Origin: Chloroflexota bacterium
GTDB taxonomy: Bacteria > Chloroflexota > Anaerolineae > Anaerolineales > Anaerolineaceae
Assembly: GCA_012517865.1 (NCBI GenBank)
Contig: JAAYUC010000032.1
Span: 1 to 41,515 of the forward strand
Direction of reading: 5' to 3'
Length of the DNA: 41,515 bases
Position 1 is the stretch's first letter; every line of letters starts with the position of its first letter. Below, piece after piece: positions 1,325 to 20,241 of this stretch. The notes below the pieces were generated by a model, which saw only the letters and a list, made by a program, of their open reading frames with translations, did not search any database and was not told the DNA's origin. The translations under genes were made by a program, and so were the position numbers.

Positions 1325-2128
1325 CTAAAGATTTGGAACCAACTTCAGCATATTGTTTAGTTCTTTGGCCAGCTCGACCAATTCTTCGCCAATGGACTGA
1401 AGTTTTCCGCACTCCAGGCGAAAAGCCGGGCCGGCAATCGCCAGCGACGCGATTGGCTTTCCATCCGCGCGGAACAACGGCACCCCCACCGCGTGAATTC
1501 CTGTTTCCAGACCTTCGCAATCGACGGAGTACCCGCGCTGGCGGGTCGCGCGCAAATCCTCAAGGAAAGCTTCCGAGGTAGGCACAACATTCGGACGGAA
1601 GCTCGTGTTAGTGCTTTGCAGAATCCGCAGCGCTTCGGATTCCGGTATCCAGGCCAAAATGGCTTTGCCAGAGGCGGTGCTGAATGCCGGCAAGCGCTGC
1701 CCCATCGAGGACGCCAGCTTCACCCGCTGCGGGCTCTGGATAACATCCAAAAACAGGACTTCATCTTTATCCAGAATTGCCAGGTCGATGGTCTCGCGAT
1801 ATTTTTCGTTCAACTTGCGCATAAACGGCAGCGCAATTTGCCGGACCCCGATTTCTTCCTGGCTCAGGTAAGCCATCTGGAGCAGGCGGTAGCCAAGGCG
1901 GTAAATGCCGGTTTCGGGGTCTCTGCGCACAAAATCGCGCCTTTCCAGGGTCGCCAGCAGCCGGTGAACGGTGCTTTTGTGTATTCCGATCTGCTCAGAG
2001 ATTTGGGTCATGTTCAAGGCCGGTGTCTGTGCTGTAAAACACAGCAGCACATCCAGCGCCCTATCCACTGCCCGCACTGAATTGCTGCCGTCACTGCCTG
2101 TTTCTTCCTGGTTTATTAAAGGGTCCAT
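1325..2128 (-). CDS. IclR-family transcriptional regulator
   Basis: 267 residues, normal length for the family. An N-terminal winged helix-turn-helix spans about 17-80 (the segment with IGIHKSTVHRLLATL is the recognition helix) and the C-terminal IclR ligand-binding domain about 95-262 (SSMGQRLPAFSTASGKAILA is the usual entry motif). IclR proteins bind small aromatic or carboxylic acids and usually act as repressors of adjacent catabolic genes. It is the last gene of the minus-strand run, behind the alpha/beta hydrolase, and is the best candidate controller of the whole 1.3-20.2 kb locus. Its own upstream region carries GTTTCAT/ATGAAA half-sites (2151-2179) that resemble the motif in the main divergent control region. 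No strong ribosome-binding site precedes the chosen ATG. Confidence 0.9.
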   Translation of the reverse strand: MDPLINQEETGSDGSNSVRAVDRALDVLLCFTAQTPALNMTQISEQIGIHKSTVHRLLATLERRDFVRRDPETGIYRLGYRLLQMAYLSQEEIGVRQIALPFMRKLNEKYRETIDLAILDKDEVLFLDVIQSPQRVKLASSMGQRLPAFSTASGKAILAWIPESEALRILQSTNTSFRPNVVPTSEAFLEDLRATRQRGYSVDCEGLETGIHAVGVPLFRADGKPIASLAIAGPAFRLECGKLQSIGEELVELAKELNNMLKLVPNL

Positions 2129-2150
2129 AATAACCGCCGAAAATGGGTTA

Positions 2151-2179
2151 GTTTCATCCTATGAAATATACCATGAAAC
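2151..2179. promoter_or_regulatory. half-site cluster upstream of the IclR gene
   Basis: GTTTCAT (2151-2157), ATGAAA (2161-2166) and ATGAAAC (2173-2179) form inverted and direct repeats just upstream of the regulator gene. The same 7-mer occurs in the divergent control region at 12867-12873 and 12896-12902. I infer an autoregulatory IclR site; the half-site arrangement differs from the sites at 12.9-13.05 kb. Confidence 0.4.
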
Positions 2180-2215
2180 TTCTTATGTATTAATCAAAGA
2201 AAACCTTCCGGATTG

Positions 2216-3175
2216 TTATTTTTTCAGGTATTTATCCAGAAAGGCGTACACAATTTCCAGATTCTCATCGGACTCGAAATATGGGTCTGCGTGCACAATA
2301 TGATTCATAAAGACATCCAGGTGCACTTTTTCTTTGCCGGCAATTTGCTCCAGTGCGGCAGCAAACTTAATCGACTGCTGAACCGGAACAACCGGGTCGT
2401 GGTATCCGTGTTGAATCAGGAAGTACGGCACATCCGGGTGGATGTATGCCGCTGGGCTGGCTTTCCAAACCAGTTCGGGAACTGTGGTAATCTGGGCGCC
2501 CAACAGGCACGATTCCGGCGATTCTGGCAGTGAATGGTCGCAGGGACCGTTGCCGGTTTCCGCCAGCATGGCATCCATCTCTAAAAAACTGTAGGTCGGG
2601 CCAAACCAATCCACCACCGCGGAGACTCGCGTATTTTCGGTTTCGTTGCCGGTGGAAAAATCTTCAAGCTCTCTCACTCCTTCAGAGGTCGCCAGGAGCG
2701 CTGCCAGATGACCGCCAGCCGACCCACCCCACAGCGCAATGCGGGTTTTATCCAGGTGATATGTATAGGCATGGGCTTTGATAAACCGCAGCGCTGACTT
2801 GCAGTCAAATATCTGCGCCGGGAAGATGGCTTCCTGGCTCAGGCGGTAATTGATGCTCACCACAGCGTAACCGCGGTAAATTCCTTTCAGCATCGGCAGC
2901 AGCTGCTCATCGCGCTTATCGCATATCTTCCATGCTCCGCCGTGAATGACAAAAATCACCGGGAATGGGCCCTCCCCCTCATCAGGCAGGAAGATGTCCA
3001 GCTTCTGAGTCTCCGATTGGCGCGCGTATGGTATATCCAACCACTGTCTTTTTACGAAGCTGGTATCCAGAATGGGCGGTGGCACTCCGGGGTCCGCTTT
3101 GGAAATCGGAGAATGTGCTTGCGCGTCCGGCTTTTGAGAGTTCTGGTTCTCTGGTCTCATTGGTTCATTTGTCAT
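2216..3175 (-). CDS. alpha/beta hydrolase, BD-FAE/HSL-like esterase
   Basis: 319 residues from the chosen start. Oxyanion-hole HGG at 78-80, nucleophile Ser152 in GGSAGG, acid Asp260 (HGYHDP) and His295 (HIVHADP) form a complete catalytic triad of the carboxylesterase/hormone-sensitive-lipase type. No signal peptide, so it is probably cytoplasmic and hydrolyses an ester, amide or formamide-like bond in a small molecule. An upstream in-frame ATG at 3217 is less likely: the ATG at 3175 has GGGAG about 8 bp upstream and the extra residues look non-conserved. It lies between the binding-protein gene and the IclR gene on the same strand. The substrate is not evident; kynurenine-formamidase-like activity is one possibility. 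Confidence 0.85.
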   Translation of the reverse strand: MTNEPMRPENQNSQKPDAQAHSPISKADPGVPPPILDTSFVKRQWLDIPYARQSETQKLDIFLPDEGEGPFPVIFVIHGGAWKICDKRDEQLLPMLKGIYRGYAVVSINYRLSQEAIFPAQIFDCKSALRFIKAHAYTYHLDKTRIALWGGSAGGHLAALLATSEGVRELEDFSTGNETENTRVSAVVDWFGPTYSFLEMDAMLAETGNGPCDHSLPESPESCLLGAQITTVPELVWKASPAAYIHPDVPYFLIQHGYHDPVVPVQQSIKFAAALEQIAGKEKVHLDVFMNHIVHADPYFESDENLEIVYAFLDKYLKK

Positions 3176-3332
3176 CGTCACACTCCCGATTCCAGTTTTG
3201 GCATTGCAAAAAAACACAGCCTGTTTGTTGAAATCACGCCGCGTTCATGTCAGATGGGACAGACCCGGATTGTGTTTCTCGGCAGCTGTAAGTATTCGTT
3301 AAATTAATACGCAAAGCTTTCGCCCCACGCTG

Positions 3333-3387
3333 ACAGCGCTGGTGGTTCCCCCTAAGAGTTGGTCAAGACGGAACCACCAGACGCTGT
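3333..3387. repeat. long imperfect inverted repeat between hydrolase and binding-protein genes
   Basis: The arm 3333-3349 pairs with 3370-3387 over 17 bp with one bulged base, around a 20-base loop. Neither side is followed by a T run, so it is not a standard intrinsic terminator. On the minus strand it lies about 90 bp after the binding-protein stop codon and could protect the 3' end of that message or separate it from the hydrolase message. The rest of 3176-3474 shows nothing else clear. Confidence 0.7.
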
Positions 3388-3474: not shown

Positions 3475-4788
3475 TTAGCGATCTTCAAAAGCCGGCGCCG
3501 GGTAAATCAATGGGGCTGTGGCATGCTCAGCCGGCCACACCAGCTCCATCTTTCCGTTCTGCCACTGAATCAGCGGGTCCAGCACATTACCGGTGCCGTC
3601 CGCGTTAAAGGTCACCTTGCCAATGACAGTGGAAAATTCGCCGGAAGCGATTGTGTCGCGAATGACATCGCGGTCCAGCGTTCCAGCCTTCTCAATCGCC
3701 TGGGCGAGAATCTGCACGCAGGCGTAAGCCGGACCAGTCAGCAGGTCCGCCGGGCGGCCGTAGAGTTCTTCATAGCGGGCATTCAGTTTGTCCACGCCTT
3801 CGAACTTGGCTCCGTGGTGCCAACCGGGGAAGATGGTTACATATTCGCCGATTTTGCCCAGGGATTCGCCCCAGTTCACGCCTTCAGGCGCGCGGATGAC
3901 GAGCGAGAATTTTGGCGTCCATCCCAATTCGGCCATAGTCTTGAACATACCACTGCCGTCCGGGAAAATGGGGAGTGTCAGCAGCATTTCCGCTCCGGCC
4001 GCTTTGGCTTTCTGAATCGCGGCAGTCCAGTCGTTCACACCGACCGGGTTCTCTTCGTACACTACGATTTCATAACCGTACTCCGGCGCGCGCTCTTTCA
4101 CCAGGCCGCCCCATTCTTTGCCCCAGTCATCGTTGTAGGCGAAGACTGCCACCTTGGTCGGACGTTCGCCTTCGGGAATGGCTTCATTCAGGATTTTGAA
4201 AACGTCCTCGGTCTGGTTGGGAGATTTGGGGAATGGCGAGAACAGGTACTTGTAACCCTGCTGGTGGATTTTGTAGAGGGCGAAGGAAATGCCCAGATAC
4301 GGAACTTTGTTCTTTTCAGCTATCGGGATAGACGCGGCATGCATCGAGCTTCCGCCGCCGCCCAGATAAGCCGTCAGTTCGTGCTCCGAGAACAAAGTTT
4401 CCATCTTGCTGACAGCCTTTGTCGGGTCTGATTCGTCGTCATAATATGTCAGACGCAGAGGGATTTTTGTGTTGTATTCTTTAACAAACACGCCGCCTTC
4501 AGCGTTAATGTGCTCCACCGCGATCTGGTAGCCAGGCAGAATCAGGTTGCCAAGCGAGCCAAAGTTGCCGGTCAGGCTGATGGACGATCCCAGCTCAATA
4601 AATTCAGGCGCGGGCGGATAAGTTGCTTCCTCTGTGACAGCAGGAGCTTCGGTTTCGGCCGGTGCTTCGGTCGCGGGGGCTTCTGTCACCACTGGGGCTT
4701 CCGTCTCAACTGCCTTGGGTGCGCAACTAGTTGCCATTAAGCTCACCAGGAGCAAAATCACCAAGGCAACTCCAAATTTCGATTTCAT
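3475..4788 (-). CDS. LivK/Type-1 periplasmic-binding lipoprotein (ABC importer)
   Basis: 437 residues. A lipoprotein signal peptide ends at Cys22 (MATSC), followed by a low-complexity Thr/Glu/Ala/Pro linker to about residue 55 and a type-1 periplasmic-binding fold resembling LivJ/LivK (opening segment …ISLTGNFGSLGNLILPGYQIAVE). It would capture the substrate outside the membrane and hand it to the LivHM permease. Members bind branched-chain amino acids but also amides, urea and aromatic acids, so the ligand is open. The start has a perfect AGGAGGT 6 bp upstream. It is the distal gene of the transporter block, 97 bp after livM. Repeated TEAP linkers of this kind are common in Anaerolineae lipoproteins. 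Confidence 0.92.
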   Translation of the reverse strand: MKSKFGVALVILLLVSLMATSCAPKAVETEAPVVTEAPATEAPAETEAPAVTEEATYPPAPEFIELGSSISLTGNFGSLGNLILPGYQIAVEHINAEGGVFVKEYNTKIPLRLTYYDDESDPTKAVSKMETLFSEHELTAYLGGGGSSMHAASIPIAEKNKVPYLGISFALYKIHQQGYKYLFSPFPKSPNQTEDVFKILNEAIPEGERPTKVAVFAYNDDWGKEWGGLVKERAPEYGYEIVVYEENPVGVNDWTAAIQKAKAAGAEMLLTLPIFPDGSGMFKTMAELGWTPKFSLVIRAPEGVNWGESLGKIGEYVTIFPGWHHGAKFEGVDKLNARYEELYGRPADLLTGPAYACVQILAQAIEKAGTLDRDVIRDTIASGEFSTVIGKVTFNADGTGNVLDPLIQWQNGKMELVWPAEHATAPLIYPAPAFEDR

Positions 4789-4885: not shown

Positions 4886-5836
4886 CTAAGGGTGAGATAA
4901 TTCAGCCATACTCTCCCGTTTCTTTTGTTGTTTATCTTTAATCCGCTTCCACAGGCCCATAAAACCGCCGGGCAGGAAGAGAACAACGAGAATGAAGAGA
5001 ATCCCAAAAACGGTGGGGTGAAATTCCGCCAGATTTAATGACAGAACTTCTTTGAGCACCACAAAGAATATCGCGCCGATAATCGGGCCAAGAATGGTTC
5101 CTGTTCCGCCTATGTAGGCCATCATGGTGGAGTCCAATGTCCAAATCGGGCTGAACGGATATTGCGGATAATAACCAATCTGGAAAAAGGCAAAGGCTCC
5201 GCCAGCCAGACCGGCAAGGAACGCGCTTAAAACCAACGCCAGGAGCTTGTGCTGGAAAGCATTCACTCCCAGAGATTCCGCCGCGTCTTCCTGTTCCCGC
5301 ACAGCCATCATGCCCAGCCCCCAACGAGAGTTCGCGACCAGGGTGGCGGCCAAAACCGTTATCAGGGCGACGGCCAAAAAGAGATAATAGCGCGTGACCA
5401 GTGTATAAGAAATTAAGTCCTGAACAGGCATCGAGGAAATCTGCGGGAAAAGATTGCCAACCGTGGCATAAAGAATCTGCCCCAGGGCAAGCGTCCCAAT
5501 CGTGAAGTACGCTCCCCGCAGCTTGAAGGCGGGTGAACCAATCAGAAGCGCGAAAGCAATCGCGAGCAGGCCGCCAACCAACATTGCCAGGAGAATATTC
5601 CAGCCCGCGAACCAAAGCAAACGCGTCGCGATGGCCCCTAGTCCAAAGAATGCGGAGTGACCCAGATTTACCTGCCCTGTGTAACCTCCAAGAATGTTCC
5701 AGGAGGAGGCCAGCGAGACATAGAGCAAAATCATGCACAGGTAGGTCAGCAGACTGTCTTTTTTCACAAAGAGCGGAACCGCGGCCAGGGCGGCTGTGAC
5801 GACGAGGGCGATGACGAACGAAAGATTCTTTTTCAT
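4886..5836 (-). CDS. branched-chain-type ABC permease LivM
   Basis: 316 residues, polytopic, with about eight to ten hydrophobic segments. The LivM-type signature region GYTGQVNLGHSAFFGLGA lies near residue 50, and the cytoplasmic loop that contacts the ATPases (GLGMMAVREQEDAAESLGVN) near 175-195. It forms the membrane channel with LivH. The start codon overlaps the livH stop by 4 bp (ATGA) and is preceded by AAGGAGG, so the two subunits are translationally coupled. Confidence 0.93.
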   Translation of the reverse strand: MKKNLSFVIALVVTAALAAVPLFVKKDSLLTYLCMILLYVSLASSWNILGGYTGQVNLGHSAFFGLGAIATRLLWFAGWNILLAMLVGGLLAIAFALLIGSPAFKLRGAYFTIGTLALGQILYATVGNLFPQISSMPVQDLISYTLVTRYYLFLAVALITVLAATLVANSRWGLGMMAVREQEDAAESLGVNAFQHKLLALVLSAFLAGLAGGAFAFFQIGYYPQYPFSPIWTLDSTMMAYIGGTGTILGPIIGAIFFVVLKEVLSLNLAEFHPTVFGILFILVVLFLPGGFMGLWKRIKDKQQKKRESMAELSHP

Positions 5837-6720
5837 CTGTCGCCCTCCTTGGTGCCAAATAATCCCTGCGGACGGAAGATAAGTATTATCAGGAAGAGCA
5901 GTAAACCCGCGATTAATCGGTAATTGCCTCCGATAAAGAATGCCGTCGCGGATTCCGTTACGCCAAGGATGATGCCTCCCACAAAGGTGCCTATCATGCT
6001 GCCCAGCCCGCCGAGGACCATCACAACCATGCTCTTGAGCGTCCAGTTCAAGCCCATGGATGGGTCAATTGAGTAGCAGATGCTGACCAGGGTTCCGGCC
6101 ACGCCCGCCAGAGCACAGCCAATCACAAAAGCGAGGAGATAGACCCGGTGAATGTTAATTCCCATCAATGAGGCAGACTGCCAATCTTCCACTGTCGCGC
6201 GTATGGCTTTGCCGGTGAAAGTCTTCTTCAGGAAAATTTGCAGAGAAATCAGCGCCACCACCGAAATTGCCAGACTGATGAGCCGGACCGCGGGCAGTCG
6301 CAGCCCCGCCAGCTCAAAGGAAAGCCCGGAGTAAGCTGTCGTTATGGAGCGGTCGTCCGCTGTCCACAAGCGCAGGGCGACATTCTGCAAAATGGTGGAA
6401 AGCCCAAAGCCCACCAGGAGCGAGTTTTGGATTTTCTTTTCCACCTCCAGTTTTATCAGTCGGGAGAAAATCAGGCGGTAGAAAATAAAGCCAATCAGCA
6501 GAAGGAAAATAATGGTCAGCGGTATGGAGAGGAAGGGATCGATTTTCAGGAGTTTAAACACCCAAAAACTGGCGTAACCGCCCAGCATGAGCAGCTCGCC
6601 GTGAGAAACATTCAAGAACTTTGAAACGCCAAAGACCAGAGAAAGGCCAACAGCGGCCAATCCGTACAGCGCTCCTATCAAGATTCCGTAAATTATGTTT
6701 TGTGCCAGTGGTTGAAGCAT
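5833..6720 (-). CDS. branched-chain-type ABC permease LivH
   Basis: 295 residues with multiple membrane spans. The LivH signature GLAAVGLSLVFGVSKFLNVSHG is near the N-terminus, and the coupling-helix loop with AIRATVEDWQSASLMGIN is at about 175-190. It pairs with LivM. It starts 12 bp after livF with AGAGG 6 bp upstream of the ATG and ends in a 4-bp overlap with livM. Length and fold are normal. Confidence 0.93.
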   Translation of the reverse strand: MLQPLAQNIIYGILIGALYGLAAVGLSLVFGVSKFLNVSHGELLMLGGYASFWVFKLLKIDPFLSIPLTIIFLLLIGFIFYRLIFSRLIKLEVEKKIQNSLLVGFGLSTILQNVALRLWTADDRSITTAYSGLSFELAGLRLPAVRLISLAISVVALISLQIFLKKTFTGKAIRATVEDWQSASLMGINIHRVYLLAFVIGCALAGVAGTLVSICYSIDPSMGLNWTLKSMVVMVLGGLGSMIGTFVGGIILGVTESATAFFIGGNYRLIAGLLLFLIILIFRPQGLFGTKEGDR

Positions 6721-6732: not shown

Positions 6733-7434
6733 TTAGCCCAGATAAGCGCTGCGCACAGATTCATAAGAAAGCAAGGCCTCGCCGGACCCTTCTCCGACGA
6801 TTCTGCCGTTTTCAATCACGTAAGCTCTGTCAGCTAGTTCCAGAGCCGCGCGGACGTTTTGTTCCACCAACAGGATCGTGACACCCTGCTTGTTGATGCC
6901 CTTCACCATCTCAAAAATCGCGTCGACCAAAATCGGCGCCAACCCGAAGGATGGTTCATCCAGCATCAACAGTTTTGGCTTGGACATCATCGCGCGCCCT
7001 ATGGCTAGCATTTGCCTTTCGCCGCCGCTCAAGGTGCCGGCGCGCTGATTTAACCGTTCCTTCAGCCTGGGAAAGGTTTTGAACACATGCTCCATCGTCT
7101 CAAATCGTTCTTTGCGCGCCCGGGACCCATAAGCGCCTAATTCAAGGTTCTCCAAGACGGTCATGCCAGCAAAAACCCGGCCGCCTTCCATCACCATCGA
7201 GACCCCCAAATCCACGATTTTATCGGGCGGGACCTTCAGCAAATCGTGGCCGTCAAATGTGATGCTCCCTTTGGCGGGCCTGAGCAGGCCGGTGATGGAC
7301 TGCAGTGTGGTTGTCTTTCCCGCGCCATTCGGGCCAATCAAAGAAACCATTTCCCCTTCGCGGACCTCCAGGGAAATGCCCCATAAGGCCTGTAAATCCC
7401 CATAAAACGTATCAATTTCTGTGAGTTTAAGCAT
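6733..7434 (-). CDS. branched-chain-type ABC ATPase LivF
   Basis: 233 residues from the chosen start, the normal LivF size. Walker A GPNGAGKT at about 34-41, ABC signature LSGGERQM, Walker B LLMLDEP followed by SFGLAP, and the switch His is replaced in the usual LivF way by VEQNV. It energises the LivHM permease with LivG. An upstream in-frame start at 7458 would add eight residues; I prefer 7434, which overlaps the livG stop by 8 bp and removes a non-conserved extension. Confidence 0.93.
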   Translation of the reverse strand: MLKLTEIDTFYGDLQALWGISLEVREGEMVSLIGPNGAGKTTTLQSITGLLRPAKGSITFDGHDLLKVPPDKIVDLGVSMVMEGGRVFAGMTVLENLELGAYGSRARKERFETMEHVFKTFPRLKERLNQRAGTLSGGERQMLAIGRAMMSKPKLLMLDEPSFGLAPILVDAIFEMVKGINKQGVTILLVEQNVRAALELADRAYVIENGRIVGEGSGEALLSYESVRSAYLG

Positions 7435-8152
7435 GGCTTTTCCCCAGGTAAACATCAATCACACGCGGGTCATACATGATTTCCTGCGCGGTCCCTTCAG
7501 CAACCTTCTCGCCCATGTTTAAGACAATGATGCGGTCCGAGAGCCCCATAATGGCTTTAACAATATGCTCAACGATCAGGATGGTAATACCCGAAGCTCT
7601 GATTTCGCGAATAGTTTCCATGGCTTCATCAGCTTCAGCGTGGTTCAAGCCGGCCATCAGCTCGTCAAGCAAAAGGAGTTTGGGCTTGGCTGCCAACGCG
7701 CGCGCCAACTCCAGGCGCTTGCGCTGCATCAAGGTCATATCCTTGGCCAATACATAGGCTCTGCTCCGCAAACCGACTTTTTCAAGAATTGAAAACGAGT
7801 CTTCTTCCGCGAGTTTCAGATTCATGGTGGCTTCTTTCCCAAAAGTCCTGCCAATCATCACATTTTGAACCGCGGTAAGATTTAAGAAGGGTTTGACCAG
7901 TTGGAAGGTGCGCGCGATGCCATTCCCGCACATGCTGCAGCGAGGGCTGCCAGCTATCTCCTTGCCATCAAACATGATTGAACCGCTGTCCGGTTTTAGA
8001 AAACCGGTGAGCAAATTCAGCGTGGTGGTTTTTCCGGAGCCATTCGGACCTATCAGCCCGACGATTTCGCCGCTTTGTATTGAAAAATCCACATTATTAA
8101 CTGCTTTTAATCCCCCAAAGGCTTTATTGAGCTTTTCGACTTGTAATAGCAT
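7427..8152 (-). CDS. branched-chain-type ABC ATPase LivG
   Basis: 241 residues from the ATG at 8152, which has AAGGAG about 5 bp upstream; the longer in-frame start at 8173 would put this ribosome-binding site inside the gene. Walker A GPNGSGKT and Walker B LLLLDELMAGLN are intact. The ABC signature is degenerate, reading MTLMQRKRLE where LivG proteins normally show L-S-x-G-Q-x-K-R-L-E. The Glu after the Walker B Asp is present. It is the first gene of the transporter block. Confidence 0.92.
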   Translation of the reverse strand: MLLQVEKLNKAFGGLKAVNNVDFSIQSGEIVGLIGPNGSGKTTTLNLLTGFLKPDSGSIMFDGKEIAGSPRCSMCGNGIARTFQLVKPFLNLTAVQNVMIGRTFGKEATMNLKLAEEDSFSILEKVGLRSRAYVLAKDMTLMQRKRLELARALAAKPKLLLLDELMAGLNHAEADEAMETIREIRASGITILIVEHIVKAIMGLSDRIIVLNMGEKVAEGTAQEIMYDPRVIDVYLGKSHA

Positions 8153-13150: not shown

Positions 13151-13819
13151 ATGTCTGAAACATTCACTCTGGCAGAGGCCACCTTAAAAGCCATCCAGGA
13201 CCGGCGCAGCATCCGGGAATATTCACCGGAGCCGGTTTCGGACGAAGACCTGAACCTGATACTGGAAGCGGCCCGACAGGCTCCCTCAGGGGAAAACGCT
13301 CAACCCTGGCGTTTCATTGTTATCAGGGATGAAGCCACCCGCAAAAAACTGGGGGACATTTCCGGCGGCGGCAGCGGCAGAAGATTCACCGCCGAGTTTA
13401 TGACCAAGAAAATGCAGCAGCGCTTTGCGACCCTGGAGGATGAAGCCAAAAAGAAAGCTGCCTACGAAAAACTGACCTCAGGCGCGGTATCGATGTTCGC
13501 GGCGACCGCTCCAGTCAATATTGTCGTGATTGGCCGCAAAGATGTGTGGGACCTTCCCTTTGACACTTCAGCCGCAATTGAAAACATGCTGCTGATGGTG
13601 ACCGCTCTGGGTTTAGGTGCTTGCTGGGTAATTGCCCCATGCATTGACGTGAGAGATGAAATCCGGCTTCGCAAACTGCTGAACATTCCCGATGAATATA
13701 AAGCGGTCAGCCTGATTTCCATCGGACATCCGACCCGCCCGCACCGCCCCCGCCCCCGACTGGCCCTGAAAGACATCGTCTTTGATGAAACCTTCGGCAA
13801 TCCCTATTATAAGGAGTAA
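13151..13819 (+). CDS. nitroreductase-family flavoprotein
   Basis: 222 residues. The FMN-contact segments are recognisable: RRSIREYSPEPV near 18-29, APSGENAQPWRF near 50-61, and AIENMLLMVTALGLGACWV near 142-160. The family reduces nitro groups, quinones, enones or iodotyrosine-like bonds with NAD(P)H, or carries out dehalogenation or ring reduction. An insertion of about 40 residues (about 78-118, basic and Met-rich) separates the two conserved halves and may shape the substrate lid. The ATG has AAAGGAG 6 bp upstream. It is the first gene of the plus operon and ends 1 bp before the next start codon. Confidence 0.88.
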   Translation: MSETFTLAEATLKAIQDRRSIREYSPEPVSDEDLNLILEAARQAPSGENAQPWRFIVIRDEATRKKLGDISGGGSGRRFTAEFMTKKMQQRFATLEDEAKKKAAYEKLTSGAVSMFAATAPVNIVVIGRKDVWDLPFDTSAAIENMLLMVTALGLGACWVIAPCIDVRDEIRLRKLLNIPDEYKAVSLISIGHPTRPHRPRPRLALKDIVFDETFGNPYYKE

Positions 13820-13820: not shown

Positions 13821-14285
13821 ATGAGCGACAAAGCCATCTCTCACGAATATTTGAATGGATTGGTTTTCGACCTGGAAAAAGCCTTTTGGGATGAACGCGG
13901 ACGCGGCTGCCGGTTTCGCATGATGGAAGTCGGTCGGGATATCTATGAGAAGGATTGCAAAGACCGCATCCAGAGCCCGGATATTCCGGTAATAGTCCAC
14001 GCTGTCAAAGAAGTCCTGATTGATAAGGGAATTGCCGCTGAGGTCGCTTTTTCACAGGAAGACCTCACTCTGCGCGTCTCCGTGGGGGGGTGCCTGCATC
14101 TGCCCGTGGAGGAACGCATGTTGGAGAAAGGCATCGAACCCTTCACTTGCGTGCCCGCGAACTTAATCATTATGGGGATCGAAGACAAACTTAACCGCCA
14201 GGTGGAACTCGCGGAAATCAAATGCGAGAACGGCGTTTGCCAGCTGTTATTGGTTGTTTTCGACCGGCCCGCTGCGGTTGTGTAA
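13821..14285 (+). CDS. conserved-looking unknown protein with Cys pair
   Basis: 154 residues from the ATG at 13821, which has AAGGAG 6 bp upstream; the earlier in-frame start lies inside the nitroreductase gene. No family recognised. Visible features are a Cys in SVGGCLHLPVEERML, a Cys in EPFTCVPANL and a CENGVC segment near the C-terminus, a pattern that could bind a metal or cofactor. It is soluble, with no signal peptide. It is packed between nitroreductase (1 bp) and CoA-transferase (1 bp) genes, so it is almost certainly part of the pathway. A V4R-like small-molecule-binding domain is a possibility I could not confirm. Confidence 0.7.
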   Translation: MSDKAISHEYLNGLVFDLEKAFWDERGRGCRFRMMEVGRDIYEKDCKDRIQSPDIPVIVHAVKEVLIDKGIAAEVAFSQEDLTLRVSVGGCLHLPVEERMLEKGIEPFTCVPANLIIMGIEDKLNRQVELAEIKCENGVCQLLLVVFDRPAAVV

Positions 14286-14286: not shown

Positions 14287-15186
14287 ATGAACAAGCTCAG
14301 CACTTTACACGACGCGGTCGCAAGCATCCCGCCAGGCTCGCACGTCGCGCTGCCCGGCTTTGCCATTGCCCGCTGCGCGATGGCATTCGCGCATGAGGTC
14401 ATCCGGCAGGGTATCAATCATCTGACGCTCTCCCAGTGCGTTGGCGCCATGGATGCCGACATTTTGGTCGGCGCGGGAATGGCGGACCGACTCATTTACG
14501 GCGGCGGGTCTCTTGACCGTTTTGGCAGGCTTAGCGCGGTTAACCGCGGCATCGAAACAGGCACTCTGGCAGCTGAAGAGTACAGCAGCCTTTCCGTCAC
14601 ATTCCGCTATCTGGCCGGTTCTTTGGGGCTTCCTTTCATCCCCATCCGCTCGCTGCAGGGCTCTGACCTGTTGAGAAACCTGAAGGAGCGGCATCCGGAC
14701 GACGTTGCCGCAATCACGGATCCCTTTACCGGCGAAGAATGGCTGGCGCTCAAACCGCTTCTGCCGGACGTCGCTGTCGCTTTGGTCTCAGCCGCGGATG
14801 AAGAGGGAAACGCTCAGATTGACGGTCCGCGCTGGGATAATCTGGAACAGGCCAGAGCCAGCAAGCGCACCATTGTGCTCGCTCACAAAATTATTTCCAC
14901 CGAAGAAGTTCGGCAGCACCCGGACCGCACCGTCATCCCGGGCTTCTTAGTGTCGCATGTGGTGCATGTGCCTTTTGCGGCACATCCCTGTTCATTATTC
15001 AAAGCATACGACTATGATGCCGACCATATCCGCCTGTACGCCGAAGCCGCGCAAAATCCTGAAAGCATGCAGGCTTATCTGGATACCTACGTCTTCGGAG
15101 TGCCCGACCACGCGGCCTATCTTGCCAAAGTCGGCGGTGAGGAACTGAAACAACGGATCAGCGCGGATCCACAGCGAGGTTATTAA
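14287..15186 (+). CDS. CoA-transferase subunit A (glutaconate CoA-transferase-like)
   Basis: 299 residues from the ATG at 14287, one base after the preceding stop; an upstream in-frame start at 14254 would overlap it. Family I CoA-transferase alpha fold: ALPGFAIARCAMAFAHEVIRQG at the N-terminus, then ADILVGAGMADRLIYGGGSLDRFG. Length and paired-subunit arrangement match glutaconate-type CoA-transferases rather than the shorter AtoD/ScoA type. With subunit B it would move CoA from a donor such as acetyl-CoA to the pathway acid. There is no clear ribosome-binding site, so translation is probably coupled. Confidence 0.85.
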   Translation: MNKLSTLHDAVASIPPGSHVALPGFAIARCAMAFAHEVIRQGINHLTLSQCVGAMDADILVGAGMADRLIYGGGSLDRFGRLSAVNRGIETGTLAAEEYSSLSVTFRYLAGSLGLPFIPIRSLQGSDLLRNLKERHPDDVAAITDPFTGEEWLALKPLLPDVAVALVSAADEEGNAQIDGPRWDNLEQARASKRTIVLAHKIISTEEVRQHPDRTVIPGFLVSHVVHVPFAAHPCSLFKAYDYDADHIRLYAEAAQNPESMQAYLDTYVFGVPDHAAYLAKVGGEELKQRISADPQRGY

Positions 15187-15187: not shown

Positions 15188-15952
15188 ATGACAACCGATT
15201 ACTCACCCTCAGAATTAATGGCTGTAGCCGGCGCTCGCGAACTAAAGGACGGTCAGATTGTCGCCGTTGGGTTGGGCCTGCCTGTAGTCGCTTCATTTTT
15301 AGCGAAACAAACGCACGCGCCCAATATGACCATTCTCTTCGAATTAGGCGTCGTGGACCCGGAGCCGATAGACAGCGGCGTGGGTCTGGCAGACCCAAGA
15401 GTGTGGTACCGCGCCAAAGTACACAGCAGTTTCGTGGATATCCTGGGAACCGTCCTGCATAAAGGACGCGTGGATGTGGGGTTTTTGGGCGGATTGGAAG
15501 TTGACCAGTTCGGAAACCTGAATACCACCCTGGTGGGCGACCCGCGCGGCAAGTTTAAGCACATGGTCGGCAGCGGGGGCGCGAATGACATCGCCTCATG
15601 CGCGAATAAAACCGTCATCATTATCCGGCATGAGGCCCGTAAATTGAAAGAAACTATATCCTTCGTGACCAGCCCGGGCTACATCAGCGGCGGTTCCGCG
15701 CGGGCGGATTTAAAGATGCGCGGCGGCCCCGAAAGAGTAATTACCGACAAGGCCATTTTTGGTTTCCACCCGGAGACCAAACGCATGCAGCTGCTTTCCA
15801 TCCACCCTGGCAACACCCTGGATGACGTTCTCAACACCATGGGCTTCAAACCGGAAATCTGTGGAAATATACCTTATACCGAGCCCCCTACCCAGGAACA
15901 GCTGCGGCTCATACGCGAACAAATCGATCCCACAAGAATGTATATGGGATAG
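15188..15952 (+). CDS. CoA-transferase subunit B (glutaconate CoA-transferase-like)
   Basis: 254 residues, normal for the beta subunit. The catalytic Glu is expected in the FELGVVDPEP segment near residue 52, which matches the (F/Y)E-x-G motif that forms the glutamyl-CoA thioester in this family. A downstream GSGGANDIASCANK segment is also typical. It starts 1 bp after subunit A and must act with it as a heteromer. The substrate is not determinable: glutaconate, 3-oxoacids and aromatic or hydroxy acids are all used by relatives. Confidence 0.87.
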   Translation: MTTDYSPSELMAVAGARELKDGQIVAVGLGLPVVASFLAKQTHAPNMTILFELGVVDPEPIDSGVGLADPRVWYRAKVHSSFVDILGTVLHKGRVDVGFLGGLEVDQFGNLNTTLVGDPRGKFKHMVGSGGANDIASCANKTVIIIRHEARKLKETISFVTSPGYISGGSARADLKMRGGPERVITDKAIFGFHPETKRMQLLSIHPGNTLDDVLNTMGFKPEICGNIPYTEPPTQEQLRLIREQIDPTRMYMG

Positions 15953-15974: not shown

Positions 15975-16160
15975 ATGCCCTATATCGTTACCAGTGAGTG
16001 TATCCTCTGCGGAGCCTGCGTGGCGGGCTGCCCAAGCGAAGCCATTACGGAAGGCGAAACCCAATCCCACATTGACCCGGAAATATGTGTGGAATGCGGT
16101 ACCTGCGAGGCAAATTGCCCCGTGAACGCCATCTATTATGCTGAAGAAACAGATCATTAA
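15975..16160 (+). CDS. 2[4Fe-4S] ferredoxin
   Basis: 61 residues with two complete cluster motifs, CILCGACVAGCP and CVECGTCEANCP, each C-x2-C-x2-C-x3-CP, giving a clostridial-type 2x[4Fe-4S] protein. It would carry low-potential electrons, most simply for the AOR-family enzyme encoded on the other strand or for the nitroreductase. GAAAGGA lies 7 bp before the ATG. The C-terminus is short, without an extra cluster-binding extension. Confidence 0.93.
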   Translation: MPYIVTSECILCGACVAGCPSEAITEGETQSHIDPEICVECGTCEANCPVNAIYYAEETDH

Positions 16161-16207: not shown

Positions 16208-17494
16208 ATGCCCGCAATCACAAAAGAAGCAGCTCTTGAATACCACCATTTAAACGGCGTCCCCGGCAAAGTCGCGATGATTCCCACCAAGCCATTGGCG
16301 ACACAGTTTGATTTAGGCCTGGCCTATACACCCGGCGTCGCCTATCCGGTTTTGGAAATCGAAAAGAATCCCCTGGACGCGTACCAATACACTTCCAAGG
16401 GCAACCTGGTGGCGGTGGTTTCCAATGGTACCGCCATCCTGGGCCTTGGTGACCGCGGGGCATTGGCGTCAAAGCCAGTGATGGAAGGTAAAGGTGTTCT
16501 GTTTAAGTCCTTTGCTGACGTGGATGTGTTTGATATCGAAGTCGATTCTCACGATCCGGATGTAGTGATCGAGGTGACCCGGGCGATTGCCCCCACCTTC
16601 GGCGGCATCAACCTTGAAGATATCAAAGCCCCGGAATGTTTTTACATCGAAACAAAACTGAAGGAAATGCTGGATATTCCGGTTTTCCATGATGACCAAC
16701 ACGGAACCGCGATTATCACCGGCGCCGCCCTGCTGAACGCGCTTGAACTGACCAATCGGAAAATATCAGATATCAAAATCGTGTTTGCCGGAGCGGGCGC
16801 GGCGGGGATGTCCTGCGCGAATCATCTGATTCGCCTGGGCCTTCCCCGCGAAAACATCTATATGGTGGACACCAAAGGCCTGATTTACCGCGGGCGAACC
16901 GAATCCATGAACCCCTACAAAGAACAATTCGCGAACGGCGACGGACCCGCTACGTTGGGCGACGCTCTGGAAGGCGCCGACGTGTTCTTCGGATTATCAG
17001 CTGCCGACATTGTCACCGAAGAAATGGTCAAACGCATGGCGCATGACCCAATCATCTTCGCCATGTCAAATCCCAATCCTGAAATTAAGTACGAGCTGGC
17101 GCGGCGCGCCCGCCCCGACTGCATTGTGGGAACCGGCCGCTCCGATTATCCCAACCAGATAAATAACGTGCTTGGCTTCCCATTTATCTTCCGCGGCGCT
17201 TTGGATGTCCGCGCGAGCGCGATTAACGACGAAATGAAGCTCGCGGCTTCTTACGCGCTGGCGGAGCTGACCAAGCAGCCGGTACCTAAAGACGTTTTGG
17301 AAGCGTACGGCCTTGACCATCTCGAATTTGGACCGGACTACATCGTTCCCAAGCCGCTGGACAAGCGCGTGTGCCTGTACGAAGCCCCCGCGGTCGCCAA
17401 AGCGGCAATGGAGACTGGCGTCGCAAGAATCCCCATCGACCTGGAAACGTACAAAGCGCAGCTCGAAGAGCGCATCGTTAACAAAGCCAGATAA
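16208..17494 (+). CDS. malic enzyme (NAD(P)-dependent, short form)
   Basis: 428 residues. Malic-enzyme N-terminal domain about 15-150 (LAYTPGVA, then [22 protein letters not shown] with the catalytic Lys) and NAD(P)-binding domain about 160-400 ([19 protein letters not shown] with metal-ligand Asp residues, [11 protein letters not shown] nucleotide motif). No phosphotransacetylase-like extension. It would decarboxylate malate to pyruvate, or an analogue such as a 2-substituted malate. AAAAGGAT precedes the ATG. It sits directly before the fumarase genes, giving fumarate to malate to pyruvate in one operon. Confidence 0.94.
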
Positions 17495-17503
17495 GGCGGA
17501 AGC

Positions 17504-18376
17504 ATGCCTGATATCACCAATGAATTAGTGGAATTGGTAAGGCTGACTTCCACAGACCTGCCAAAATCTGTACAGGACGCACTCATAGAAGCCCGGGAAG
17601 CTGAAGCCGAAGGTTCAGCAGCCAAAGCGGCTATGGTTTCCATTCTGGAGAACGTCGAAATGAGCCGCCGAAATATGACTCCCATTTGTCAGGATACGGG
17701 CACGCCGCTCTTCTTCGTGAAATACGGGCGGGGATGGGAACCAGGCGCGCTCAAAGCCCAAATCCGGGCAGCGATTGCCGAGGCCACCAAACGTTCCTAC
17801 CTGCGCCCCAACGCGGTGGATTCCCTGCATGGAAAAAACACTGGCAACAACCTTGGAGATGACAATTTCCCAACAATTCATTTTCAGGAAGTCGATGGCG
17901 AGACGCTGACGGTAGACCTGATGCTGAAAGGCGGAGGTTGCGAGAATGTCGGCCGGCAGTATTCCCTGCCGGATGTTCAGCTCGGCGCGGACCGCGACCT
18001 GGAAGGCGTGCGAAAAGTTGTCCTGGACGCGGTTTACCAGGCGCAGGGTCAGGGCTGCGCGCCAGGTTTCCTGGGTGTCGCTATCGGCGGAGACCGAGGC
18101 AGCGGTTATCTGGTATCCAAAGAAGCTTTGCTGGCTGGCTTGCACGAAGAGAACCCGGAGCCGGAGCTGGCGGCCTTGGAGCAGCGCATCACCGCCGAAG
18201 CCAACACATTGGAAATCGGTCCGATGGGTTTTGGCGGAAAATCCACGGTGCTTGGCACCAAAATCCGGTCTTCACACCGCCTGCCAGCCTCGTACTTCGT
18301 GACAGTCTCCTATATGTGCTGGGCTTACCGCCACCGCACCATGATTATTGAAGGGAATCAGGTGAGCTACGTATGA
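17504..18376 (+). CDS. class I fumarase/tartrate dehydratase, alpha subunit
   Basis: 290 residues, matching the separate alpha subunit of two-subunit class I hydro-lyases. The three [4Fe-4S] ligands are Cys62 (PICQDTGTP), Cys146 (KGGGCENVG) and Cys185 (QGQGCAPGF). The cluster is oxygen-sensitive, in line with an anaerobe. Relatives hydrate fumarate or mesaconate, or dehydrate L-tartrate; sequence alone does not separate them. The stop overlaps the start of the beta subunit by 4 bp (ATGA). Confidence 0.93.
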   Translation: MPDITNELVELVRLTSTDLPKSVQDALIEAREAEAEGSAAKAAMVSILENVEMSRRNMTPICQDTGTPLFFVKYGRGWEPGALKAQIRAAIAEATKRSYLRPNAVDSLHGKNTGNNLGDDNFPTIHFQEVDGETLTVDLMLKGGGCENVGRQYSLPDVQLGADRDLEGVRKVVLDAVYQAQGQGCAPGFLGVAIGGDRGSGYLVSKEALLAGLHEENPEPELAALEQRITAEANTLEIGPMGFGGKSTVLGTKIRSSHRLPASYFVTVSYMCWAYRHRTMIIEGNQVSYV

Positions 18377-19008
18377 GCAGCGACAAATTCAAACGCATCT
18401 CTGTGCCCATCTCCGATGAAGCGATTCGCAGCCTGAAAATTGGCGATTCTGTGCTTCTCAGCGGTGTCATTGTTACCGGACGCGATGCGGTGCACAAATG
18501 GTTCATGGATTGTTTCATCGCCAAAACCGTCCCGGTTTCCGCGGAAGACGCTCAGGTGTATGAAGAATTAAAACAGCTGCTGCGGGACGGCGTTATTTAT
18601 CATTGCGGTCCGGTTGTCAGTGGGCTGCAGGATAAAAACTACCGCTTCGTGGCTGCCGGGCCGACCACCAGCATCCGGGAGGAGGCATATCAAGGTGCCG
18701 TGATGGAACACTTCCATATGAAAGGCGTCATTGGCAAAGGCGGCATGGGCGCCAAGACATTGGCTGCCTGCGCCAAAATCCCGGCGGTGTATTTCCACGC
18801 CATTGGCGGGGCTGCTTCGCTCATTGCGGAATCGGTCAAACAGGTACGTGGCGTATACAAGCTGGAATTTGGCGTTCCGGAAGCGCTGTGGGTCATTAGA
18901 GTGGAAGACTTCCCGGTGGTAGTCACGATGGACTCCCATGGAAACAGCCTGCATGATGAAGTCCAGAAAAATTCTCTTAAAAAGCTGGAAGCGGTTCTGG
19001 GCGAATGA
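18373..19008 (+). CDS. class I fumarase/tartrate dehydratase, beta subunit
   Basis: 211 residues. Typical beta-subunit features: SGVIVTGRDAVHK near residue 30, HCGPVVSG near 75, GPTTSIRE and the substrate-binding GKGGMGAKTLAAC near 116-128. It is translationally coupled to the alpha subunit. Together they form the heteromeric Fe-S dehydratase. Length is normal for the separate beta chain. Confidence 0.92.
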   Translation: MSSDKFKRISVPISDEAIRSLKIGDSVLLSGVIVTGRDAVHKWFMDCFIAKTVPVSAEDAQVYEELKQLLRDGVIYHCGPVVSGLQDKNYRFVAAGPTTSIREEAYQGAVMEHFHMKGVIGKGGMGAKTLAACAKIPAVYFHAIGGAASLIAESVKQVRGVYKLEFGVPEALWVIRVEDFPVVVTMDSHGNSLHDEVQKNSLKKLEAVLGE

Positions 19009-19051
19009 ACCCCTGAGCGTTCCAACGGCCCAGCGTTTGTAAGGCATTCAA

Positions 19052-19092
19052 CCCCGGCTCCCCATGCGATAAGACTCAATTGGCAGCCGGGG
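19052..19092 (+). promoter_or_regulatory. stem-loop before the LDH2-family gene
   Basis: Perfect 8-bp GC-rich stem (CCCCGGCT 19052-19059 with AGCCGGGG 19085-19092) with a 25-base loop in the 106-bp gap after the fumarase genes. No T tract follows, so it may act in mRNA processing or stability instead of termination. Confidence 0.4.
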
Positions 19093-19114
19093 ATTAGCTT
19101 AAGGCAGGTTCGAG

Positions 19115-20164
19115 ATGAAAGTAAAGCGAGAAGACCTTTTTAACAGCGCGGTCGCGCTGCTGACCGCGGCAGGAGAAAGCCCGGAAGGGGCTGCTCTGGT
19201 CGCGGAAACGTTCTGCAAGGCGGACGCGCGCGGAATCACAACGCACGGCTCATACTTGTTAAACCCTATATTTAACCGCGTTCGGGCCGGTCAGCTCACC
19301 CTCCCCACCGCCGCGACAGTGGCAGTCGACACCGCAGCGGTTGCCGTGGTAGACGGCGGCGACGGCCTTGGACCGGTAGCGGGCAAACTGGCCGCCGACC
19401 TGGCTGTCGCCCGCGCGAAGCAATATGGAATAGGTCTGGTACTCATCCGCAACACCAACAGTGTTGGTTCGCTGGCGTATTATACAGAAATGGTCGCGCG
19501 TCAGGGCATGATTGCCCTGATGAGCAGCAACGCGGCGCCTTCCATGGCTCCGTGGGGCGGAGCGGAAGCGTTTACCGGTACCAATCCAATCGCCATCGCC
19601 ATTTACACCGGCCGGGAATTGCTGTTTTCGGCGGATATGGCGACCAGCGTGGTGGCCAGAGGGAAGATTCGTCAGGCTGCCAGGCGCGGAAAGGAAATCC
19701 CTCCTGATTGGGCTCTGGACAGCAGCGGCAACCAAACCACTGACCCCAACGAAGCCCTCAAGGGCACCCTGCTCCCGATGGGCGGACCAAAAGGTTCGGC
19801 GATCGCGCTCGCGGTGGACATTCTCTCCGGTATTGTCGCGGGCGCAGAACACGCGCCCAATATCAAGAGCTTCCACAACCTGGACGGCAAGACGGGCGTT
19901 GGGGCGTCTTTGATTGCGATTGATATCGAAAAATTCATGGCGCTGGACGCCTTCAAAGCAAGCATGGATGAATACATCGCAAGCTTAAAAAACATGAAAA
20001 AAGCCAGCTTCGCAAACGAGATCTATCTGCCCGGTGAGATTGAATATAATAAGGAAAGAGAAAGCCTGGTTTCAGGTATCAGCCTGGACGATGAGGCTGT
20101 TGCTGCGCTAAATCAACTCTTGGAAAGCGTCGGCTCGGATTTACGCCTGACCGCAATGGATTAG
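19115..20164 (+). CDS. LDH2/MDH2-family NAD(P)-dependent dehydrogenase
   Basis: 349 residues. The family (YlbC/AllD, sulfolactate and malate dehydrogenases, not Rossmann-type) is recognisable from ADARGITTHGSYLL at 37-49, VDGGDGLGPVAGK near 80, SNAAPSMAPWGGAEAFTGTNPIAIA near 144-168 and GGPKGSAIALAVDILSG near 233-249. It would oxidise a 2-hydroxyacid such as malate, tartrate or sulfolactate. The conserved R-N-S-N-H-(F/A)-G motif reads R-N-T-N-Ser116-V-G here, so the usual catalytic His is missing, while His44 is kept. It is the last gene of the operon. Confidence 0.85.
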   Translation: MKVKREDLFNSAVALLTAAGESPEGAALVAETFCKADARGITTHGSYLLNPIFNRVRAGQLTLPTAATVAVDTAAVAVVDGGDGLGPVAGKLAADLAVARAKQYGIGLVLIRNTNSVGSLAYYTEMVARQGMIALMSSNAAPSMAPWGGAEAFTGTNPIAIAIYTGRELLFSADMATSVVARGKIRQAARRGKEIPPDWALDSSGNQTTDPNEALKGTLLPMGGPKGSAIALAVDILSGIVAGAEHAPNIKSFHNLDGKTGVGASLIAIDIEKFMALDAFKASMDEYIASLKNMKKASFANEIYLPGEIEYNKERESLVSGISLDDEAVAALNQLLESVGSDLRLTAMD

Positions 20165-20199
20165 GACGTACACAAGAATCTCGGCAGGATTAATCGAAG

Positions 20200-20241
20200 A
20201 AACCACAAAGTAAGGCGGGCCGCCTTACTTTGTGGTTTTTA
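20200..20241 (+). terminator. strong intrinsic terminator of the plus-strand operon
   Basis: Near-perfect stem of up to 19 bp (20200-20218 with 20220-20238; the innermost pairs must open for the loop) followed by TTTTT. It is the clearest terminator in the window and closes the first catabolic locus. The opposite strand would also read AAAAACCAC…GTGGTTT with a short T run. Confidence 0.95.

Follow-up and report, generated by a model that had tools for sequence, protein, structure and literature searches.

The locus described here occupies positions 1325..20240 of a 41,515-nt stretch of DNA from a Chloroflexota bacterium (contig JAAYUC010000032.1); we call this whole stretch the window, and all coordinates refer to it. 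Two divergent operons lie there, which an earlier note had read as an unrecognised anaerobic catabolic unit for a cyclic amide or an aromatic or heterocyclic acid. Every gene that it listed is present, judged by the Pfam or NCBIfam scans or the translations from which gene identities were taken, and its interpretation is partly supported: the kind of unit was read correctly, but one enzyme was misidentified, and the cyclic-amide substrate falls with it. That enzyme is placed by its sequence in the IolN clade of hydrolases. Tentatively, and at somewhat less than an even chance, we propose that the two operons together serve to open a six-membered carbon ring (a carbocyclic polyhydroxy-diketone) and to oxidise it anaerobically.

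Minus-strand operon, in gene order from the divergent region outwards:
12474-12836, minus: small cupin (Cupin_2 55 bits)
11535-12449, minus: TIM-barrel protein of an unnamed family (structure model and fold searches)
10555-11520, minus: IolN-clade hydrolase with creatininase fold (NF041098 513.6 bits, cut-off 245; tree)
8801-10528, minus: AOR-family oxidoreductase (Pfam AFOR_N 182 bits, AFOR_C 234 bits)
8587-8808, minus: MoaD/ThiS-like small protein with C-terminal Gly-Gly (alignment and structure model)
7427-8173, minus: LivG-like ATPase (ABC_tran and BCA_ABC_TP_C; LivG model 203.9 bits, below cut-off 362)
6733-7458, minus: LivF-like ATPase (ABC_tran 116.7 bits; LivF model 277.5 bits, below cut-off 441)
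5833-6720, minus: LivH-like permease (BPD_transp_2 127 bits)
4886-5836, minus: LivM-like permease (BPD_transp_2 133 bits)
3475-4788, minus: LivK-like periplasmic binding protein (Peripla_BP_6 157 bits)
2216-3217, minus: alpha/beta hydrolase of the BD-FAE family, esterase-like (Pfam BD-FAE 216.8 bits)
1325-2128, minus: IclR-family regulator (Pfam IclR_C 128 bits, with HTH_IclR)

Plus-strand operon, in gene order:
13151-13819, plus: nitroreductase-family flavoprotein (Pfam Nitroreductase 119 bits)
about 13821-14285, plus: unnamed protein of ~154 aa, not a ferredoxin (start taken as the Met conserved in the alignment)
about 14287-15186, plus: CoA-transferase subunit A, glutaconate type (PF01144; 1poi_A 147.5 bits; start inferred)
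15188-15952, plus: CoA-transferase subunit B, glutaconate type (PF01144; 1poi_B 167.5 bits)
15975-16160, plus: 2[4Fe-4S] ferredoxin (named from motifs alone, two CxxCxxCxxxCP in the translation)
16208-17494, plus: malic enzyme (Pfam malic and Malic_M)
17504-18376, plus: Fe-S fumarase/tartrate dehydratase-type alpha subunit (Fumerase 256.6 bits; TIGR00722 above cut-off)
18373-19008, plus: Fe-S fumarase/tartrate dehydratase-type beta subunit (Fumerase_C 161.8 bits; TIGR00723 above cut-off)
19115-20164, plus: LDH2-family 2-hydroxyacid dehydrogenase (Ldh_2 363.7 bits)

By their coordinates, the first five minus-strand genes follow one another with gaps of 24, 14 and 26 bp and then an 8-bp overlap between the AOR and MoaD-like genes, and a 413-bp gap separates the latter from LivG. 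Two gene models were corrected: the hydrolase start was set to 11520 (the database prediction, P0121, is 321 aa), and the bounds of the MoaD-like gene to 8587-8808, which conserved starts back. No RNA elements or tRNAs were found in the window. The assembly gave no 16S match, and the organism's placement comes from the closest named MAGs (metagenome-assembled genomes) alone.

The hydrolase and its partner enzymes

The earlier note had called the product of 10555-11520 a creatininase-type amidohydrolase. It scores 513.6 bits on the NCBI IolN model NF041098 (cut-off 245) over model positions 1-307. On TIGR04448, the model for creatininase, it reaches 77.4 bits, below that model's cut-off of 235. 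We built a tree of 35 rows (27 window-type, four from inositol loci and four other creatininase-fold proteins), omitting rows of 300 aa or less, with a limit of 250 aa for rows added from loci L132-L147. Window-type and inositol-locus hydrolases formed one branch against the four other proteins, with support of 100/100, and the tree tool flagged long branches joining at the outgroup. Among the positions that do not vary within the window type and are retained in the inositol type, but not in the four others, are eight residues: H97, W127, R132, K155, Y157, G182, G183 and R306. With the hydrolase in the IolN clade, the cyclic-amide reading of the substrate falls.

IolN opens a cyclic diketone, 3-dehydro-scyllo-inosose. 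The inositol pathway of Thermotoga maritima to which it belongs was reportedly described by Rodionova et al. 2013, a study cited in PMC9603128. The window hydrolase resembles IolN in its branch, its score and the shared residues; it differs in being only ~42% identical to the IolN proteins encoded next to IolG or IolM and in its linkage to AOR, TIM-barrel and cupin genes. Sequence comparison thus places it in the IolN clade as a subfamily separate from inositol-type IolN; in the tree the inositol-type branch is well supported (100/99), the window-type branch weakly so (83/88). The cut-off of the IolN model is exceeded in 9 of 400 genomes and in one of the 14 control genomes, and it scores the window type at 506-544 bits versus 310-334 bits for the four inositol-type loci (compare window:10555-11520 with L132:8527-9501 and L138:8294-9421). 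Since the model favours the window type, automatic names such as "3-dehydro-scyllo-inosose hydrolase" may be misapplied: they cover a second subfamily that probably does not serve ordinary inositol catabolism. Hydrolases of this kind also occur in other settings. In genome G208 a 57% identical copy adjoins an IolM-like Zn-alcohol dehydrogenase (224.5 bits on the IolM model, cut-off 450) and sugar-type ABC genes; in G276 the same hydrolase lies amid genes similar to those of G208 (neighbours named by eye), and in G015 a member of the window subfamily accompanies an AP_endonuc_2 TIM barrel and a LarA-like gene.

The AOR-family protein matches both Pfam parts, PF01314 and PF02730, over its whole length. 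Its nearest solved structures are 9mqx (236.7 bits) and 1aor (236.2 bits), whereas the ring reductase BamB reaches only 65.9 bits. Cys295, Cys299, Cys303 and Cys482, which we take to be the ligands of a [4Fe-4S] cluster, are invariant in a 13-row alignment. It thus shares with characterised AORs (1aor, 9mqx, 9g7j) both Pfam parts, a score of about 236 bits, the cluster cysteines and an adjoining MoaD-like gene; it differs in its first cluster motif, C-x3-C-x3-C, which in the aligned solved AORs is one residue shorter (C-x2-C-x3-C), and in being tied to a ring-opening-type hydrolase. In locus L003 an aldehyde-dehydrogenase-like gene (named by eye) fills the AOR slot between hydrolase and LivG. 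This substitution and the closeness to aldehyde-oxidising AORs favour oxidation of an aldehyde over reduction of a ring as the predicted reaction, and the enzyme is predicted to depend on tungsten. To our knowledge, the AOR family includes many enzymes that still lack an assigned physiological substrate.

Pfam gives no match for the MoaD-like protein. Its C-terminal Gly-Gly is invariant in 10 of 10 aligned rows, and its structure model (pLDDT 89) has MoaD, 1fm0_D, as its top Foldseek match (E 1.6e-4, TM 0.73), so that the predicted beta-grasp fold and the Gly-Gly end together mark it as a probable MoaD/ThiS-type protein. Overlapping genes, the Gly-Gly end and the fold match bear out the earlier view of an AOR with a dedicated MoaD-like partner.

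The TIM-barrel protein matches no Pfam or NCBIfam family at E 0.001 (only PF01136, weakly, at E 0.016) and no PDB entry by sequence up to E 10. Its structure model is of good quality (pLDDT 87, pTM 0.86), and fold searches return TIM barrels; they tie across many of them, and for that reason no function was drawn from them. The unnamed family counts 2999 database proteins at E <=0.001. We read the neighbours of distant relatives (32-43% identity) in 12 Chloroflexota stretches. Such relatives adjoin enolase-superfamily proteins in L094, L095, L098 and L101 and metallo-beta-lactamase-fold hydrolases in L091, L094, L096 and L101; sugar-type ABC genes or, in L097, a FAH-family protein are further neighbours. 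The L092 relative (32%) directly precedes fumarase subunits 60-62% identical to those of the window. No sugar-acid-type neighbour was recognised in L090, L093, L099 or L100. The sugar-acid-type neighbours of several relatives suggest that the protein may be an aldolase or isomerase acting on sugar-acid-like keto acids. The small cupin beside it has His53, His55, Glu59 and His95 invariant in an 18-row alignment.

Further settings of the TIM gene were seen. In most Methanobrevibacter loci a fumarase alpha-like gene follows it, as part of an acid cluster of these methanogens. At L030:8529-13151 the order is a PrpD-like gene, the TIM gene, a fumarase-like and then a citryl-CoA-lyase-like gene, and a PrpD-like gene also occurs in L025. 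At L021:222-6149 a Spirochaete TIM gene lies beside PrpD-like, aminotransferase-like and 5-oxoprolinase-like genes (by eye).

Conservation and control of the cluster

A search of genome contigs with the TIM protein returned 66 loci, 25 of them bacterial (Chloroflexota, Acidobacteria and one Spirochaete) and 41 archaeal, mostly from Methanobrevibacter. The 25 bacterial loci come from 23 genomes: L056 and L060 apparently belong to one, and L001 and L002 are taken as another because they share an accession prefix and G400 holds two hydrolase copies. Among these 25 loci, the cupin and the hydrolase were each found in 22, IclR homologues (30-82% identity) in 20, AOR in 14, LDH2 in 13, LivG in 10, LivK in 9, CoA-transferase A in 8, nitroreductase in 7, MoaD in 6, ferredoxin, malic enzyme and BD-FAE esterase in 4 each, and FumA in 3. 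These counts are lower bounds, as many stretches end at contig ends, and many of the LDH2 matches, at 29-34%, are a paralogue other than the window's. Genes outside the window's set include GlcF-like and LarA-like genes (9 loci each), GlcD-like genes (8), Zn-alcohol dehydrogenases (7) and reductive-dehalogenase-like genes (5 of the 25). One protein of the last kind, at L017:18846-20093, scores 179.9 bits on TIGR02486 (cut-off 160.35); it lies near Liv genes of related clusters.

Whole-genome searches extend this picture. A window-type hydrolase of at least 60% identity is present in all 24 TIM host genomes (as two contig-end fragments in G408 and a partial copy in G405), and an AOR of at least 63% identity in 16 of 23 genomes (one of them partial), with partial copies of 57-59% in two more; the Methanobrevibacter genome tested had none. 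We stopped the orthologue count at 57%, because paralogues also reach 47-52%; second AOR copies elsewhere are similarly close, at 49% in G404 and 46% in G414. Locus organisation varies around the shared genes. In L018 a 48% AOR copy sits at the core, and in the genome of L019 a 47% copy lies apart. In two loci, L008 and L009, AOR-MoaD shares a contig with the hydrolase at a distance of ~15-16 kb, past the Liv genes, a pair of esterase-like genes and a sugar-type ABC importer. One Chloroflexota MAG has two cluster copies that differ, L001 having AOR-MoaD and L002 lacking it. A search of 301 genomes with the TIM protein gave 23 matches, the close type only in the window's own genome.

The core genes stay together, rather than scattered, in many uncultured Chloroflexota and some Acidobacteria, as the synteny check proposed in the earlier note would have it. 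The tight core is cupin-TIM-hydrolase, often joined by AOR-MoaD, and the extent of the locus is partly modular, relatives differing in whether they carry the Liv genes, the block of nitroreductase and CoA-transferase and that of fumarase and malic enzyme. Pairwise distances agree for AOR and cupin (Mantel r 0.72, 0 of 2000 permutations as high), hydrolase and TIM (r 0.45, 0 of 2000) and AOR and TIM (r 0.34, 4 of 2000). For this test one plus-strand L011 AOR paralogue was excluded and one member was kept where a locus had two; the alignments omitted hydrolases <300 aa, AORs <500 aa and short rows of other families.

Part of the core recurs in another cluster type. Genome G200, from the window's own family, has a row of RraA-like aldolase, LDH2 (66%), AOR (44%), cupin (41%) and hydrolase (52%) genes along with two Zn-alcohol dehydrogenases, an AP_endonuc_2 TIM barrel, ThiF, a transporter and phosphoenolpyruvate carboxykinase; in L135 a homologue 66% identical to the window LDH2 stands beside AOR, cupin and hydrolase. 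The Spirochaete G419 (L145) combines RraA-like aldolase, LDH2 (42%), AOR (47%), SDR-like, cupin (43%) and hydrolase (59%) genes with a TRAP-type importer; no TIM gene was seen beside this cluster, the window-type TIM gene lying on another contig (L021). Because AOR, cupin, hydrolase and LDH2 recur together where the window's TIM is not beside them, they are likely the functional heart of the system. Some neighbours in these and other loci were named by eye from translation: the aldehyde dehydrogenase (L003), SDR, GntR and TRAP genes (L145), the transporter (L135), aminotransferase- and 5-oxoprolinase-like genes (L021), sugar-type ABC genes (L091, L094, L096, L101, L132, L140 and L141), kinase and 6-phosphogluconate-dehydrogenase-like genes (L132, L136 and L138) and a UlaG-like gene (L094, where Pfam gives only Lactamase_B_2).

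The two operons of the window diverge from a 314-bp region that carries two copies of ATTCTRTAAAAYTGKGTTTYATT, 147 bp apart. Its sites, and the repeat that closes the plus operon at the place the earlier note had given for its end, are as follows.

12881-12903, plus: operator copy 1, 23 bp, starting 6 bp past the -10 of a minus-strand promoter-like site (12938-12910)
13028-13050, plus: operator copy 2, 23 bp, starting 6 bp past the -10 of a plus-strand promoter-like site (12993-13021)
20200-20238, no strand: perfect 19-bp inverted repeat, terminator-like (from the repeat search; absent from the terminator scan's list)

The promoter-like sites read TTGACA-17-GATAAT on the plus strand (11 of 12 matches) and TTGACA-17-TAATAT on the minus strand (10 of 12). 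They face outwards and rank highest of the seven sites found in the divergent stretch; as 5.4 were expected, the scan by itself is weak proof. The chance expectation of 0.00 for the operators in a shuffle test is circular, because the pattern was derived from the same two copies. Independent support comes from L001 and L002, both of which carry the two operators, 146 bp from one another and with 0-2 mismatches; being two cluster copies in one related MAG, they count as one relative. Among four other loci scanned, L008 and L009 match only at 5 mismatches and L015 and L016 do not match, and of 147 loci only 4 contain an exact match to the core pattern, namely L001, L002 and two stretches of the window's own genome. 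The operators shared between the two units in the earlier note are thus found again in a relative, and their pairing suggests that the divergent operons are controlled together; the IclR protein (1325-2128) is a candidate reader of these sites. With its conserved linkage and its operators, the locus does look like the linked and probably co-regulated catabolic unit first proposed.

A possible ring-opening pathway and its alternatives

Directly observed are which genes occur and how they are linked, the hydrolase's clade and the repeated site; from these we infer the following reactions, substrate and regulator action. The Liv-type system would import the compound, perhaps once an esterase has freed it. 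The metal-dependent IolN-clade hydrolase would then cleave a C-C bond of a cyclic 1,3-diketone to give an open-chain keto acid; the model is IolN acting on 3-dehydro-scyllo-inosose, with a ring here other than that of the ordinary inositol route. The cupin, as an isomerase, and the TIM barrel, as an aldolase or an isomerase/epimerase, could break this acid down to smaller products that include an aldehyde. The AOR, with a tungsten or molybdenum cofactor made with the help of the MoaD-like protein, would oxidise the aldehyde to an acid, with the 2[4Fe-4S] ferredoxin of the plus operon as electron acceptor. Finally, the LDH2-family dehydrogenase, the glutaconate-type CoA-transferase, fumarase and malic enzyme may lead on to pyruvate or acetyl-CoA. 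The outflow to a C4 dicarboxylate and pyruvate in the earlier note thereby finds support in the enzymes encoded, and stays conditional as a route.

The Bacillus-type iol operon combines the TIM barrel IolE, the cupin IolB and the hydrolase IolD. The window likewise combines a TIM barrel and a cupin with a ring hydrolase; its TIM barrel, however, has no AP_endonuc_2 match and its hydrolase has the creatininase fold. No pathway of the window's make-up was found in the literature searched, in line with the earlier claim that none is described, and no paper paired AOR or tungsten with creatininase, Anaerolineae, inositol or scyllo-inosose; the search covered CC-licensed full texts only, so this is a weak absence. 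If true, our proposal would add a carbon-ring-breaking route to lineages known mostly from MAGs, and the unnamed, widespread TIM-barrel family would gain its first function. The recurrent partnership with an IolN-clade enzyme of predictable chemistry narrows the question of the AOR substrate to a set of ring compounds.

Several observations weigh against this proposal. Neutral cyclitols are not usually taken up by Liv-type importers, and no enzyme of the window obviously produces a cyclic diketone. The window's own genome has no IolM-like Zn-dehydrogenase at E 1e-20, and of its three GFO_IDH proteins the two that pass the Pfam cut-off score only 101.5 and 99.3 bits on the IolG model (cut-off 355). 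The hydrolase's tree position leaves its substrate unfixed. The fold match of the TIM protein is unspecific (Foldseek ranks class II aldolases first, VIA-align RuBisCO-like proteins, with many barrels tied), and an aldolase or isomerase role leaves the PrpD-like/fumarase-like context of L030 unexplained. In Methanobrevibacter the TIM protein (44-50% identity) occurs next to fumarase-like genes with no AOR or hydrolase nearby, so its reaction is not bound to this pathway. Five of 23 genomes lack a clear AOR orthologue in whole-genome searches, with only 47-52% identity in the genomes of L003, L018, L019 and L021 and 36% in that of L010. Between AOR and hydrolase the agreement of distances is weak: over 15 loci Mantel r is 0.30, a value reached in 98 of 2000 permutations. 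Lastly, the same-genus genomes G290 (TIM and IolN model searches) and G311 (IolN model search) gave no match, which makes the locus patchy.

The alternative that survives best, which we nevertheless regard as doubtful, is that the AOR uses ferredoxin electrons to reduce a free polyhydroxybenzene to a cyclohexanedione, which the IolN-clade hydrolase then opens. The chemistry of the hydrolase would fit cyclohexane-1,3-dione, and the absence from the own genome of an IolM-like dehydrogenase, by which the diketone might come from a cyclitol, speaks for it too, as do esterase genes: a tannase/feruloyl-esterase gene in L012 (405 bits) and a homologue in L022, both near the core, and in the window itself the BD-FAE-type gene at 2216 and the feruloyl-esterase-like gene at 22606. 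Anaerobic phloroglucinol degradation by PGR, DPGC, TfD and TAL provides a precedent for reduction followed by hydrolytic opening, as set out in PMC10470551. According to the same paper a metal hydrolase opens a cyclic 1,3-dione anaerobically, much as we propose here, but this cyclohydrolase, DPGC, is of the "cyclase" family, with isatin hydrolase as nearest characterised relative, and not of the family of the window hydrolase, and the reductase uses NADPH (PMC10470551). None of the genes of that pathway was noticed in the window's Pfam/NCBIfam results. The similarity of the AOR to aldehyde-oxidising enzymes (236 bits) rather than BamB (66 bits) and the aldehyde-dehydrogenase-like gene in the AOR slot of L003 argue against ring reduction, and LarA, LDH2, Zn-alcohol dehydrogenases and AP_endonuc_2 TIM barrels near the hydrolase point to polyhydroxylated acids. 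For the aromatic ring reduction of the earlier note, no evidence pointing to that step was found. The specific form in which a tungsten-containing AOR-family enzyme reduces a free, non-CoA polyhydroxylated aromatic to a 1,3-dione, to be opened by the IolN paralogue and cleaved by the new TIM family, is unlikely; were AOR ring reduction true, it would amount to an undescribed oxygen-free breaking of aromatic or cyclitol-like rings in uncultured Chloroflexota and Acidobacteria.

There is a similarly small chance that the modules merely stand side by side, AOR-MoaD detoxifying or fermenting general aldehydes and the cupin, TIM barrel and hydrolase doing something else. The variable Liv, CoA-transferase and fumarase/malic blocks, the 15-16 kb between AOR and hydrolase in two loci, the five of 23 genomes with no clear AOR orthologue and the weak AOR-hydrolase distance agreement would all fit such an arrangement. 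It sits poorly with the 16 of 23 core genomes that hold an AOR at 63% or more (and the two with partial copies at 57-59%), with the tight spacing and 8-bp AOR/MoaD overlap of the window, and with the AOR-cupin-hydrolase trio of the other cluster type and the shared operators.

That the locus serves ordinary Thermotoga-type myo-inositol catabolism (IolG, IolM, IolN and IolO), with incidental neighbours, is quite unlikely. The hydrolase does exceed the IolN cut-off and lies on the IolN branch, one of the 14 control genomes also exceeds that cut-off, and in G208 a related hydrolase stands beside an IolM-like dehydrogenase and sugar-type ABC genes. Four inositol-type loci of Chloroflexota (L136-L139), however, carry different IolN-like hydrolases, 41-42% identical to the window's, beside Zn-alcohol dehydrogenase or GFO_IDH genes. 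Of the genes scored in these loci, IolG (474 bits), IolM (550) and IolN (314) of L138, a true inositol locus, all exceed their cut-offs, as does IolM of L136. A second hydrolase at the inositol-type level of identity (40-44%) accompanies the window type in 6 of 24 host genomes, and in 3 of these it directly adjoins an IolM-like gene, in a search that covered 18 of the 24 TIM genomes, G408 not among them, and four others. The canonical combination of IolG, IolM and IolN is missing from the window's own genome. Since inositol-type copies occur alongside the window type, and since neither IolM nor an IolG passing its cut-off is present in the own genome, the hydrolase probably works in a pathway different from ordinary inositol breakdown.

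It is very unlikely that a creatininase-type amidohydrolase opens the lactam of a cyclic amide or heterocycle: Liv-type importers often take amides and amino acids, and the fold and the conserved E58, H60, D69 and H140, at what we take to be the metal-site places of creatininase, would suit it, but the model scores, the separate 100/100 branch with its eight shared residues, and the lack of any recognised ammonia- or nitrogen-handling family among the annotated ones of 28 neighbour clusters (at least 3 loci each; two small ones unannotated) all tell against it.

Importer, CoA-transferase and flanking genes

The LivK-like protein has the Leu/Ile/Val-binding-type protein 8wch as best solved relative (E 1.3e-16), and its nearest solved proteins do not tell its ligand. 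The two CoA-transferase subunits are closest to glutaconate CoA-transferase (1poi; 147.5 and 167.5 bits). In subunit B, Glu52 aligns with the VESG stretch of 1poi_B and is invariant in 6 rows; as its equivalent is presumably the catalytic residue, the two-subunit pair appears to be of the glutaconate type. An IpdAB-like ring hydrolase (6co6/6coj) was considered for the pair and set aside, the scores being far lower, at 87.6 and 52.9 bits. The unnamed protein at 13821-14285 has no Pfam match at E 10; in 6 loci it is conserved alongside the genes for nitroreductase and CoA-transferase.

Beyond the plus operon, and near it, window:22606-23745 encodes the feruloyl-esterase-like protein, which scores 215 bits on NF041944 (cut-off 1200), matching that model's C-terminal half. 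Further on, window:24090-31706 holds a fumarate-reductase-type flavoprotein gene (FrdA/TfrA-like) by an oligopeptide/nickel-type ABC importer, possibly a second catabolic operon.

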